In this document: one piece after another, positions 1,067-59,039 of the stretch
How positions within the stretch are numbered: position 1 is the stretch's first letter
Layout: each line of letters opens with the position of its first letter
Assembly: GCF_019059575.1 (NCBI RefSeq)
Contig: NW_024883391.1
Coordinates: forward strand, 1 to 64,000
Direction: 5' to 3'
DNA length: 64,000 nt
DNA from: Amphibalanus amphitrite
Lineage: Eukaryota > Arthropoda > Thecostraca > Balanomorpha > Balanidae
Program-made: the position numbers and the translations under genes
The notes under the pieces: generated by a model
The model's input: only the letters and a program-made list of their open reading frames with translations
The model's database searches: none
What the model was told of the DNA's origin: nothing

Positions 1067-2101
1067 CACGCGCACTGCAGCGGGTCTGAGCCGAACACGA
1101 ACTGCAGGGGGGGGGGGGGGGGGGGTTGAAAACAACCCCCCCTGAGATCTCGAAAACGGCGCAACGTAGCGACAAGCGGTAAACGGCGTTGGATAGGTTA
1201 AGATGAGATCGACAAGAAATACTAAGATCATTTTTGGGTCAGGTCAAAAACGAGGTCACCAGAGGTCACCGAAGACAAAATGTTACGATTTTCACAACAG
1301 GAATTTCGCGGTAGTTTTTCTTGAATAAGTTGTCTTGCACACAAGACAGAGGATCGATTCGAACGCCATCGTTCTTAGCTCGTCAAGGCGCATCGAATGA
1401 TATATAATATGACCTCGAAAGGTCAAGTTGAAAATTTGACCTCAGGTCAAGGTCATGACCTGACCGAAATAGGTCATGTTGCATATCATTCGATCCGCAT
1501 TGACGAGAAAAACACGATAAACGTCGAACGGAGTCTCTATCTCTACTCAATCTCAAGTTATTGAAGAAAAACCGCTGGTGACCTCAGGTGACCTAAGATG
1601 ACCTGGAGATCACCTTCCAAAGGTCATAAGTGATATGTTTCGGTGAAATCACCAACAGGGACCTGTAATACTATGATCCTGAGCGTATTGAAGTCATAGG
1701 ATGGCATTCAGAGTAAGTTGAAATTTCTCCCATTGACTTATAATGGGCCGGTCGCAAAAATGACCTGACCTTAGGTCATCGATATAAAAATTCCGAGATA
1801 TACAAGTTGTAGCTCGTGATGACTTTACTATTTCCTGTGGGTTTCAAGATCATATCTCAACAACTGTGGGCTTGGTGGGATTGCAAACTTCGAAATTTAC
1901 GTTTCGAGGTAGGGTCACTTGACCTGACCTGGTGACCTGACCATAGGTCACCTGGGGTCAAAATTTTTACTCAAGGTGTGCAAAAGTTGTGAGAACAGGT
2001 ATGCAAAATTTGGCGGCGCTACGCGCCGCCGTTTTCTCGCAATTTGCGAAAAACCACAGGGGGGGGGGGTTGAAAACAACCGCCCCCCTGCAGTGCGCGT
2101 G
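1067..2101. mobile_element. TTAA-flanked hairpin-ended element 1 (piggyBac-like, non-autonomous)
   Basis: A 1035-bp element bounded by TTAA at 1063-1066 and 2102-2105. Termini are inverted repeats: left CACGCGCACTGCAG, right CTGCAGTGCGCGTG. The left end is 'double': the CTGCAG tag recurs at 1102-1107 just before a G run. Hairpins lie inside both ends, 1107-1142 (G run, TTGAAAACAA, C run) and 2059-2088 (same inner arms). No coding capacity; the interior is rich in AGGTCA/TGACCT. TTAA target duplication is known for piggyBac and Kolobok; the piggyBac assignment is inference. Confidence 0.85.
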
Positions 2102-2259
2102 TTAAGATACTGACTAAAAAAAAAAGAAAAAAAAACTGAAAATGGGGGCACCACCAAAATGAAGTGGACGAAATCCGTTGAGTTTTTAATTTTGGGTATA
2201 GGTAGGGGCACCACTTCGATTCATGACCCTCCCCTTGGAGTTTTCCTGGATCCGCCCCT

Positions 2260-2432
2260 GTCACACACTCACTATACCGCATACTCTATAACACAATATC
2301 ACACACTCACGTTATCACACTCTCACTATATCACACTATCACATACTCACTTTATCACACACTATCATACACTCACTTTATCACACTCTCACTATATCAC
2401 ACACTCTTTATCACACACTCCCTTGTTCACTT
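2260..2432. repeat. TCACAC/CACTATA low-complexity tract
   Basis: Irregular tandem tract of units such as TATCACACACTCACTT. Translation gives SHTHYIT-type monotony. I see no gene in it. Confidence 0.8.
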
Positions 2433-2810
2433 GTGAACTTGTAATATCTACAAATAATGCTGATATACCTACAAAATGAATAACTACAGTTATAATGCAT
2501 CAGCATTGTGATCTTCACCCAAATGACTCACTTCACGAATAGGATCTCCCAATTCCCCATGCTTTGGAACCGCCCCTGATATAGGTATCAACTTGAAATT
2601 TTCAGGAAATGTGCTCAGTTTAGTTTTGAGATAAGTCTGAAAATTTCAGCTTCCTAGATTTAGCCGTTTTGAAGATATTCCCGAAAAACCCTGAGGGGTG
2701 GATGAAAAAACCCCCTGCCACCAGTATAGCGCCTTTTGGGGCGACTAACGGAGCGAGCGAGGGGGTGAGTCTTGCACGTGCGAAATTTCGAGGGGGTACC
2801 TCCAACTGAC

Positions 2811-3130
2811 TTGTGCACGGCACCCTACTAACCGGTCTCTAGCGATGTGCCAAATTTGAGCACAATCGGCCCAGCCATTCTCGAGATCTGGAAGCGGCAC
2901 CCTGCACGTGCGCACGTGCAAAATGGGTCCCGACTGGCTTTTGCACGGCACCCTACTAACCGGTCCCTAACTGTGTACCAAATTTGAGCGCAATCGGTCC
3001 AGCCGTTCTCGAGATCTGGAAACGACCCCTGCACGTGCGCACGTGCAGCAGCACCCCAACTCTGGCACATGGATATGCAGTGCCTAGTGGGTGCCTACCT
3101 ACTTGCCAACTTTCAGCGCAATCGGCCAAG
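2811..3130. repeat. 129-bp tandem repeat with double E-box palindromes
   Basis: Two good copies and one decayed copy. GCACGGCACCCTACTAACC begins at 2814 and again at 2943, a period of 129 bp. Each good copy contains the 18-bp perfect palindrome TGCACGTGCGCACGTGCA (2903-2920 and 3030-3047), which holds two CACGTG E-boxes. Related sequence recurs at 20,190-20,440, so the family is dispersed. No protein is supported. Confidence 0.8.
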
Positions 3131-3326
3131 TAGTTACCGAAATATTGCAACAATTGCAAAACTGACACCTCTTCGTTTTGCACGTGGCACGTGCATAAGG
3201 GGTCACTCACATGCATCGGGAATAGTCCAATACTTGGTAGAAGGAATGAAGCTACCCTATAAAAATTACCGCGTGTAAATCGGTCAAGTGGTTGCTGAGA
3301 TATAAGCCTCGCAAAAGCGTCCGCAC

Positions 3327-56560: not shown

Positions 56561-57004
56561 AATGAGGCGGCACGCGCCCCTTGTGTCTCCCCCCCCCCCC
56601 CCGCTTACGCTGCGCTGGCTGCGGCCATACAGGTAAATCGTATTCTAACCGTCCCTATTCCCAAGCATAGGCGGCGGCCGATTCCTGGCTTGCGCAATAT
56701 GACTGCCGTCGTTACGCAATACGGTCAATAGGGTTGAAGCGGCATAGCTCCCTTGTGGTAAGAAGCAACATATTTTTAGACAAAATAAAGGCAATGACAA
56801 CTAAATTGAGGTTACTAAAACGACTCTGATCACAAAAGTACCTAGTTACTAGGAAGGCTTTCTAATCAATTTTTATTTAGTTCCTCGTTATAGGCGTGAG
56901 AAGTGTAAGTCTGAATGGGGGGGGGGGGCATACTTGTACTGAATGCCCCTCAGGCTCCTGTCCGGGGAGCATCATATGCCCCTAACCTATTAATTTGAGG
57001 ACTC

Positions 57005-57196
57005 GTTTTAGGGCCTTGGGCGGGCGGGCGGGCGGATGGGGTCTGGGGAGACAGATAGACGGACGGACGAACATACGGAGAGACGGATGGACGGACGGAC
57101 GGAGAATGGAGAAACGGACGGATGGATGGACGGACTGAGAGACGGAAGGGCGGACGGACGGATGGAGAGACCGACAAAGAGATGGACAGACGGACG
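57005..57196. repeat. (GGAC/GGAT)n tetranucleotide tract
   Basis: GACGGACGGACG and GATGGATGG repeats leading into the GA array. Confidence 0.88.
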
Positions 57197-57800
57197 GGTA
57201 GAAAGAGAGAGAGAGAGAGAGAGAGAGAGAGAGAGAGAGAGAGAGAGAGAGAGAGAGAGAGAGAGAGAGAGAGAGAGAGAGAGAGAGAGAGAGAGAGATT
57301 CGCAGAGAGAGAGAGAGAGAGAGAGAGAGAGAGAGAGAGAGAGAGAGAGAGAGAGAGAGAGAGAGAGAGAGAGAGAGAGAGAGAGAGATTCGCAGAGAGA
57401 GAGAGAGAGAGAGAGAGAGAGAGAGAGAGAGAGAGAGAGAGAGAGAGAGAGAGAGAGAGAGAGAGAGAGAGAGAGAGAGAGAGAGAGAGAGAGAGAGAGA
57501 GAGAGAGAGAGAGAGAGAGAGAGAGAGAGAGAGAGAGAGAGAGAGAGAGAGAGAGAGAGAGAGAGAGAGAGAGAGAGAGAGAGAGAGAGAGAGAGAGAGA
57601 GAGAGAGAGAGAGAGAGAGAGAGAGAGAGAGAGAGAGAGAGAGAGAGAGAGAGAGAGAGAGAGAGAGAGAGAGAGAGAGAGAGAGAGAGAGAGAGACTGA
57701 GAGAGAGAGAGAGAGAGAGACTGAGAGAGACTGAGAGAGACTGAGAGAGAAAGAGAGACTGAGAGAGAAAGAGAGACTGAGAGAGAAAGGACTGAGAGAG
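57197..57800. repeat. Long (GA)n microsatellite
   Basis: About 500 bp of nearly pure GA up to 57,695, then GAGACT-interrupted units. Two identical interruptions, GATTCGCAGAGA, at about 57,298 and 57,388 are 90 bp apart. Translations are (RE)n or (SL)n only. Confidence 0.98.
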
Positions 57801-58002
57801 AGAGGGGGTGGTGAGAGAAAGGAGGATAAGTATGAAGGAAAAGACTAACAGAGACTTCAGGGAGGACGGCAAGGAGACTGATACCTACAGAGAGGAACAG
57901 TAGCGGCGGAACACCTTCAATTAAGGGGGGGGGGGGGGGCACTGCCAACTTTTGGTCCCATTCTTTCCATGCAACGCCCATAGGCCATAGGGCTAATGTT
58001 AA

Positions 58003-59039
58003 CCCTCGCCGGCCGAGGGGGGGGGGGCGGGTGCCGCCCCCCCCCCCATAGGGTTTTTTCGCGATAGCTCCGAACACGCTAGCGATAGAGAGCTGAAACT
58101 TGGCATACCTGACCTTTGATCCAAGCCGCATCTTTTGACACCAACCGCATTTTTGGGTCAGGTCAGGTCACTGACCTATGACGTCATAAGTGAACCTCTG
58201 CACGGTCTTCAGATGTCGCAACTTCGCAACGCCCTCACTGCCAGAGGAGATGTCACAGGGAAATGAAACTTGCAGGATCTAGTATCCATTATGAGTCTCA
58301 CAACTTGTATATCTCGGATTTTTCCTAAAGGTCATATGAGGTCAGGTCATTTTCGTGACCTCACCATTATAAGTCAATGGGGAAAAATGAAAACTGCTAT
58401 TCTGGCGCCGGGAACGATCTCCAACTATCTCAAGCACACAGAATCGTGATTTGATGCACTCCTTGCAAGGTTAGATGCGTCACTTTTGCAATGTTGACCT
58501 TCCGTGACGTCATTTATGACGTCATCAAGGTCATATTAGTTTTTCGTCAATAACTCCCGATCAAATTGAGCTAGCTAGTCGAGCAAGCCACCAATGGACT
58601 CAGGAAGACCTGCCGAATCGAATGATATGCGACATGACCTCTTTCGACCAACTTCGTGACCTGGGGGTGCTGACCTGACCTTGACCTGAGGTCAACACCC
58701 CAAGTTGACCTGACCCAAACAAAAAGTATATCATTCGACGCGCCTGAGCGAGGCGAACACGATGCTGCCAAAATCGCGGCTCTGCGGCCGTTTTTTGCGA
58801 AGGTATTCACCAAAAACTGAACCGTACCCTGGGGCACTTGACCTGACCTCAGAGGTCACCGGTTGACCTAGGACCTTAAAATCGGGTACCAGTCTCTGCG
58901 TCTCGTAACGGCGCACACGCTCGTTTTTTCCGCGACGCGCTAGCTCCACCAGGGGCGAAACGGCGAGGGGGGGGGGTAGTACCCGCCCCCCCCCCCCTCG
59001 GCCGGCGCGTATGTAGAAAACCAATAGGTCCGGCGAGGG
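58003..59039. mobile_element. TTAA-flanked hairpin-ended element 9
   Basis: 1037 bp between TTAA 57999-58002 and 59040-59043. Left end single (CCCTCGCCGGCCGAGGGG), right end double (CGGCCGGCGCG...CCGGCGAGGG). Hairpins near 58,016-58,050 (CGGGTGCCG) and 58,967-58,998 (GGGTAGTACCC). The right terminus matches the fossil end kept in every tandem unit (5,350, 21,180, 38,275). Interior with AGGTCA and GACGTC words, no gene. Confidence 0.9.

Follow-up and report, generated by a model that had tools for sequence, protein, structure and literature searches.

A 64,000-nucleotide stretch of the barnacle Amphibalanus amphitrite (contig NW_024883391.1, positions 1 to 64,000; the window) carries a set of mobile elements flanked by TTAA in which, just inside each end, a short core lies between a run of G and a run of C (the G/core/C unit). 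In our judgment these elements are probably non-autonomous members of the piggyBac superfamily, and the G/core/C unit a site read as duplex DNA by a dimer of the cysteine-rich domain (CRD) of a transposase. An original prediction, made from the letters of the window, had proposed that the units keep pairing while their sequence changes because a cruciform or folded strand is selected, perhaps for recognition by a transposase or for protection of the ends. Recognition by a transposase is very likely right, and transposase genes were found between the same ends. The selected fold has the covariation itself in its favor; it is not needed to explain the data and is partly contradicted by one large family of ends (CTATTTTTTG, 1,452 ends) and by the unmatched lengths of the runs. 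Below, E1–E10 denote elements and F fossils of the window, and L numbers denote loci fetched from the genome. What is said of published systems draws on portions of the papers cited.

Transposase Genes Lie between the Same Ends

The genome contains 116 matches to PF13843. Within the window, none was found among the four frames scanned, and the content is one of reverse transcriptase and RNase H frames amid dense repeats; the window elements are taken as non-autonomous copies of about 1 kb that lack a transposase gene. A complete 3.97-kb relative is present at L058 (positions 715–4685), where the same ends surround a 674-residue piggyBac transposase (P0001; the frame is counted from the preceding stop and the first methionine is at 29). 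Its short end reads CCCTAGAACGCCTA-G10-TTGTATCAA-C10, and its long end has the box CGACCA followed by G12-TTGTTACGA-C8. The protein matches PF13843 (DDE_Tnp_1_7) with an E value of 2.4e-69, aligns with T. ni piggyBac (6x67) over residues 117–666 (E 2.2e-78), and aligns with piggyBat over the core (E 3.4e-30). Its C terminus carries the motif CxxC-CxxC-CxxH-CxxC, given as the CRD motif of T. ni piggyBac in the portion consulted of PMC8086355. The motif recurs in frames of L058, L051, L059, L053, L104, L105, and L106; the longest frame of L050 ends out of frame and does not contain it.

In three copies of the P0001 family both ends were located around the gene. These are L058, a copy on C44 (L050 and L057), whose match is split across two frames near its end, and one on C1173 (L056 and L051), whose match contains one stop. 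Five more transposase loci were fetched by similarity to P0001, three of them flanked by G/core/C ends. L104 is 58% identical to P0001 and has the box GGCACA with cores TTGGTGCGA (long end) and TTGATGCAA (short end); its right TTAA has decayed to TTAG, and the match holds one in-frame stop. L105 (52–58% identical) has the box CGTATA and cores TCCGTTTGA and TCGAACGGA, with its gene in two frames and its TTAAs degraded. L106 is 38% identical to P0001 and comprises a 666-residue frame within 4,723 bp, both ends, the box CCTGGT, and cores CCAAAATGA and CCATTTTGG. Four transposase families of one clade (L058, L104, L105, and L106) are therefore found between G/core/C ends that differ in box and core, and they answer the search for a transposase gene flanked by the same ends that had been suggested as a check.

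Were the ends those of an unrelated type of TTAA transposon, the piggyBac genes would be passengers within it. Among the 18 piggyBac loci first fetched, seven have a TTAACCCATTARYGCC tip pair and two more have one such tip, all lacking the G unit, which could be taken in that sense. We consider this highly improbable, as it has to be set against the four families of a single clade, the three P0001 copies bounded by both ends, and an end layout that agrees with that of piggyBac.

Architecture of the Ends

A typical end is ordered TTAA-CCC(G/T)CGC-box-G run-core-C run. Among window elements with TTAA ends, E1 alone lacks CCC at the transposon tip and has CAC on both sides; E2 and E6 differ in the letters that follow, and the short tip of L106 is CCT. 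The two ends of an element are unequal: every intact window element has one short and one long end. A single expression recognized 160 ends in the window and the fetched loci, a sample in which overlapping loci are counted twice, the CCTGCT family is deliberately oversampled, and a few odd readings are retained. Short ends account for 77 of these, with the G run exactly 13 bp from the tip in 66 and 13–14 bp in 73; 80 are long, at exactly 40 bp in 57 and 39–43 bp in 76; three are intermediate (23–25 bp). Among the eight intact window elements, the long end exceeds the short by 33 bp in E6 and by 26–28 bp in the other seven; in the autonomous element at L058 the two distances to the G run are 14 and 41 bp. 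In the long end the box is present twice (less clearly in E9), the second tip box lying ~27 bp further in, as on the right end of piggyBac.

The six letters of the box are shared by the ends of one element at 5.78 of six positions (18 comparisons; E1–E5 and E7, with E6, E8, and E9 not entered) and between elements at 3.13 of six (135 comparisons), with p = 5e-5, the lowest value that 20,000 permutations allow. Two to four of the four outer positions pair in the partly self-complementary boxes of E3–E5, and zero to two in those of E1, E2, and E7; a reading of the tip box as a second hairpin is rejected. Since boxes show the same concordance as cores, a sequence that differs between elements and matches within them is not a property particular to pairing arms.

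The G run is 4–19 long, and the median lengths are 11 for the G run and 7 for the C run, as assembled. The two lengths are not positively correlated: rho is −0.22 for short ends (n = 30) and −0.11 for long ends (n = 34) of the CCTGCT family, and weakly negative over all 145 ends (rho −0.21, p = 0.013). On the plus strand of the window, runs of at least seven number 41 for G and 26 for C, many of them outside elements.

The pattern TTAACCCKCGCN6GGGGG has 27,853 exact matches in the 807.5-Mb host genome, and its reversed control has one. The figure is not a count of elements, because it also includes long ends whose tip box contains five G. The original prediction had allowed that the runs might be assembly artefacts; this is unlikely for the pattern as a whole, given its recurrence at thousands of places in the genome. 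In viral contigs the pattern occurs at seven loci, none with a G/core/C unit in the 110 letters inspected at each.

The Arms Covary across Families

The window contains 25 units of the form G5+/N3–14/C5+. Fifty dinucleotide shuffles gave a mean of 0.72 (maximum 3), random re-placement of 160 long G/C runs gave a mean of 1.5 (maximum 5), and units in the opposite order (C..G) number three. When one end was taken per element or fossil (10 in total), the outer arms paired at 28 of 30 positions, compared with 11.5 on average after permutation (p = 1e-5, the lowest attainable). A 16-row alignment was also scored, with runs cut to five, N at some centers, slippage letters trimmed from E1R and E3L, and E8R and E6R not entered. 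Pairing cells made up 93.7%, compared with 79.9% after shuffling, and the covariation score was 0.430, compared with 0.166 for shuffles and at most 0.123 with the partner slid. Two of the five covariation measures did not exceed shuffles (two-sided changes, 4 versus 3.6; further pair types, 11 versus 11.0). With genome copies added (the commonest core per box, 8–10 letters long), pairing was found at 56 of 75 positions in 25 distinct cores, where permutation gave 26.7, and at 36 of 51 in 17 clearly different cores, where it gave 17.8; both p values are at the floor of 50,000 permutations. All three outer positions pair in 13 of the 25 and in 8 of the 17. The claim of covariation between the arms across families is thereby confirmed.

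Such covariation is what a selected cruciform or hairpin would produce if an extruded G:C stem were needed by the transposase or by a protective step and the arms stayed complementary for its stability. Seven ends folded as single strands were better than their shuffles (z −1.99 to −4.50), and two long-end cores have T/G at their second arm pair, which could form a wobble. The window had no match in Rfam at gathering scores. The family with core CTATTTTTTG, represented in the window by E5, points the other way. Its core had been listed among the self-complementary arms, which it is not; there is no arm complementarity in this family, and what matches is the left end to the right, the core being identical at both ends in E5 and L028. 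The genome holds 1,452 exact long ends with this core. Even this long end retains a G:C stem (minimum −24.8 kcal/mol, z −2.73), while the fold of the short end of E5 is poorly defined (centroid −0.8 kcal/mol; minimum −12.6, z −2.46). The unmatched run lengths, the equal concordance of boxes that have no consistent pairing, and the reading of palindromes as duplex by piggyBac (PMC7351741) and piggyBat (PMC11707139), in the portions of those studies seen, also speak against a fold as the object of selection, which we regard as unlikely. Copies whose arms drift without complementarity had been named as evidence that would count against the prediction, and the fossil at 50,340, which has lost arm complementarity, is one.

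Cores Are Found in Both Orientations

When each end is read from its tip, E1 and E3 have cores of opposite orientation at the two ends, as do L105 and L106, and the cores of E2 differ in this way by a single center base. The earlier statement that arms vary between elements and match within them thus holds for the matching of the ends, but in E1, E3, and (at the center base) E2 the match is between flipped cores. In the commonest family, TGTTTGAACA, the core is unchanged in 4,187 long ends and inverted (TGTTCAAACA) in 99, and another 24, obtained by subtraction, have one of two single transitions. No double substitution was found at arm pair 3/8 of this family, the one pair tested. In the CTATTTTTTG family, no inverted core was seen, compared with the 1,452 unchanged.

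These inversions bring in mutation as a possible keeper of the palindromes, with template switching copying one arm onto the other and sometimes inverting the loop. In the part of the work available to us, the process can yield both compensatory changes and inverted loops, and its authors call its role in keeping short stems less clear (PMC8794818). The cores inverted between ends in E1, E3, L105, and L106 and the 99 inverted long ends, set against 4,187 unchanged and 24 with a single transition, are as it would predict. The zero double changes at pair 3/8, the lack of inverted cores in the CTATTTTTTG family, and the concordance of the boxes, which it leaves unexplained, are not. In a tree of element bodies, 19 inverted and 19 unchanged, the inverted state needs four changes, against 13.0 when shuffled; the strongly supported branches force one origin only. 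The clustering means that the 99 copies reflect few events plus spread, so that the ratio of 99 to 24, once taken as proof of one-step inversion, is weakened by clonal spread. We think it improbable that template switching is what keeps the palindromes perfect. Because core-inverted elements have spread, either orientation of the core is mobile. A short end was recognized in 15 of the 19 parsed inverted copies; it has the usual core in 13 and a mutated one in two, and is inverted in none.

It is also conceivable, with a low probability in our estimate, that the G:C-stemmed palindromes fold during the reaction, hairpin extrusion at both ends being a step of transposition and the inverted cores its footprints. 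If so, structure as well as sequence would be selected.

A Probable Duplex Site for a CRD Dimer

The duplex-site reading, which we prefer, would run as follows. It is presumably piggyBac transposases of the P0001 clade in the same genome that mobilize the window elements in trans. The tip box would correspond to the stretch that the core domain of the transposase touches. The palindrome, which stands at the position of the CRD-dimer site in piggyBac, would be bound as duplex by a CRD dimer, as the order of the parts and the ~27 bp offset match those in piggyBac and piggyBat. Core and box would change together because specificity differs from one transposase lineage to the next. Identical protomers would read the two halves of the palindrome, so that their joint change would resemble compensatory pairing, and covariation would arise without any fold. 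The G and C runs probably lengthen by slippage around an essential short G/C flank. The target of selection would then be the duplex site and not a fold. The CTATTTTTTG family, the run lengths, the inversions, and the lack of a double change together favor a symmetric duplex site; the same tests leave room for occasional template switching, and a fold built on the G:C runs alone may also occur.

Several observations weigh against this reading. The length of the G run varies the distance from palindrome to tip, and in piggyBac a 5-bp insertion in the middle of the right end cuts activity by about half, according to the portion consulted of PMC7351741. The cores without full outer pairing include real exceptions as well as frayed readings, and the long-end cores of P0001 and L104 have T/G at the second arm pair. 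The CRD segment alone had no match in the PDB at E ≤ 10. No clear end pair was found around the gene at L107 or in the L053/L108 region, and no autonomous element among the fetched loci was seen to carry the boxes and cores of the window families. Genes of other piggyBac clades in this genome have TTAACCCATTA ends without a G/core/C unit, which is therefore not a feature of the superfamily as a whole.

Elements and Insertion Sites in the Window

The window holds eight intact TTAA elements (E1–E7 and E9), one that is truncated on the left (E8), fossils, and one tip at the right edge. Nine intact elements with hairpins had been reported, and eight of the nine stand, with hairpins at both ends. 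The ninth, at 44,831, is ruled out as an intact element: it has a tip (TTAACCCGCGC at 44,827) and no G/C hairpin downstream to 45,620.

E1 (1063–2105) has its long end on the left and its short end on the right, with box ACTGCA; its units are at 1107–1142 (core TTGAAAACAA) and 2059–2088 (core TTGTTTTCAA, read from the right tip and flipped). E2 (5454–6395; box GTTGCT/TTTGCT; units 5471–5499 and 6325–6351) and E3 (10668–11869; box CCTGCT; units 10685–10718 and 11799–11825) have the short end on the left and the long on the right, and the long end of E3 is one of the 99 genomic copies with inverted core TGTTCAAACA. E4 (35691–36889; left long, right short; box CCCACT/CCTACT; units 35734–35771 and 36844–36872) is inserted inside an F4-like copy. 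E5 (40928–43936), also left long and right short, has box CCTGGT and the non-palindromic core CTATTTTTTG at both ends; its body is interrupted, a reverse transcriptase piece (42633–43754, minus strand) being among the interruptions. One TTAA is common to E5 and E6. The latter (43933–44830; box GCACAT) has a short left end with a 9 bp tip, a long right end at 42 bp, and cores TTGCCA and TGCCA. E7 (45626–46806; left long, right short) has box GGGGCT three times and core TAAATTTTA at both ends. E8 (47240–48404; units 47252–47278 and 48344–48377) is a left-truncated relative of E3, 82.8% identical over 1147 bp. E9 (57999–59043) has a short left end (14 bp), a long right end (42 bp), box GGCCGA, and units at 58017–58047 and 58967–58997. 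E10 (63964–64000, plus strand) is the tip of one more element, which runs past the edge of the window.

Fossils are located at 4,503, 14,427, 35,263, 50,340, and 61,434. F4 (4503–4847, plus strand) is a fossil long end with box CGTGCT and core CGTTTTCACG (4548–4576), and F61 (61434–61475, minus strand) is a fossil short end with core TCGGATCCGA. Near-copies of F4 at 14427–14501/15099–15380 and 35263–35337 have an insert within the stem; in the F4-like copies (14427–15380 and 35263–35520) this insert is accompanied by an 8-bp duplication, TCACGCCC, of the kind that we assume a hAT-type element would leave.

Joining the flanks of the eight elements tested and searching the window with the result gave paralogous empty sites for four. 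These have one TTAA for E2 (21162–21326, 39568–39704, and 6427–6480), E3 (24849–25089 and 34317–34558), and E7 (38666–38908), and TCAA for E4 (15180–15423 and 4647–4890). None was found within the window for E1, E5, E6, or E9.

Other Features of the Window and Genome

The hexamer AGGTCA, which we take to be a nuclear-receptor half-site, occurs at 14.1 per kb in eight elements (E1–E4 and E6–E9; E5 left out) and at 0.84 per kb elsewhere in the window, with five scrambled hexamers at 0–0.46 per kb. The non-coding parts of L058 and L106 have 6.5–13.0 copies per kb, and the open frames are nearly free of it (0 and 0.5 per kb). Another such end lies in the left flank of L058, where the density is 6.0 per kb. 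Three piggyBacs with TTAACCCATTA ends have zero, two, and four sites in ~2.7 kb each. The dense AGGTCA inside the elements suggests a further link to the host. A 152-bp tandem array at 25638–32720, inverted at ~28,932 and built around AGGTCAAGGTCA, has 209 AGGTCA sites.

Two more perfect palindromes bracketed by G and C, with cores TACTGTA and ACCTGT, lie outside the TTAA elements at 8594–8644 and may mark one end of a different transposon. At 57200–57804 there is a 600-bp (AG)n array. Elsewhere in the genome, a 604-residue piggyBac with TTAACCCATTAGTGCC ends (read in L047) has nine matches of equal score and two within 0.5 bit, and these near-identical scores suggest recent movement.

Comparison with Known piggyBac Systems

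The superfamily, the asymmetry of the ends, and a palindrome bound by the CRD are already known. In piggyBac, by the portion of the study available (PMC7351741), a palindromic internal repeat is bound by the CRD dimer as bent duplex DNA, and an insertion and a duplicated segment distinguish the two ends; bp 34–63 of the right end (RE) are almost identical to bp 7–35 of the left end (LE), an offset of 27. The corresponding portion for piggyBat describes a tip motif and, after it, an imperfect palindrome to which two CRDs bind, an arrangement present three times on the left end (PMC11707139). The literature searched, which covers part of the field, yielded no report of homopolymer-bracketed palindromes, of their division into many families of one genome, or of mobile core inversions, and literature matches to the end-sequence strings look unrelated by title and abstract. 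To our knowledge, the choice of palindrome by a CRD is known from the piggyBac and piggyBat structures only.

The barnacle elements share with T. ni piggyBac (LE35/RE63, as far as the source portions describe it) the TTAA target, the CCC tip, asymmetric ends with an inner copy offset by ~27 bp, a palindromic internal repeat, a DDE_Tnp_1_7 core, and a CRD of the form CxxC-CxxC-CxxH-CxxC. They differ in that the palindrome is bracketed by long G/C homopolymers, varies between families, and has a core that can be inverted, that the window copies are of about 1 kb without a transposase gene, and that the tip box has the form GCGC-N6-GGGG. With piggyBat of Myotis lucifugus they have in common a tip motif (GCGGGA in piggyBat) and an imperfect palindrome unit. 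The CRD of piggyBat is of another fold and its right end has no palindrome, in the portion of that work seen, whereas the barnacle elements have a palindrome at both ends and a CRD motif of the T. ni type. The piggyBacs with TTAACCCATTA ends in the same genome have TTAA flanks, the CCC tip, and PF13843 in common with them; no G/core/C unit is seen at their tips, their longest inspected frames lack CxxC-CxxC-CxxH-CxxC, and the three that were counted have few AGGTCA sites.

The duplex site of a dimer can give rise to strong covariation in DNA, a signal that is often read as proof of folding. What this genome adds to the piggyBac and piggyBat structures is a transposase clade with differing CRDs together with 17 clearly different cores among the copies sampled, some of them in an element with its transposase, so that the rule by which a CRD recognizes its palindrome can be tested by comparison within one genome.

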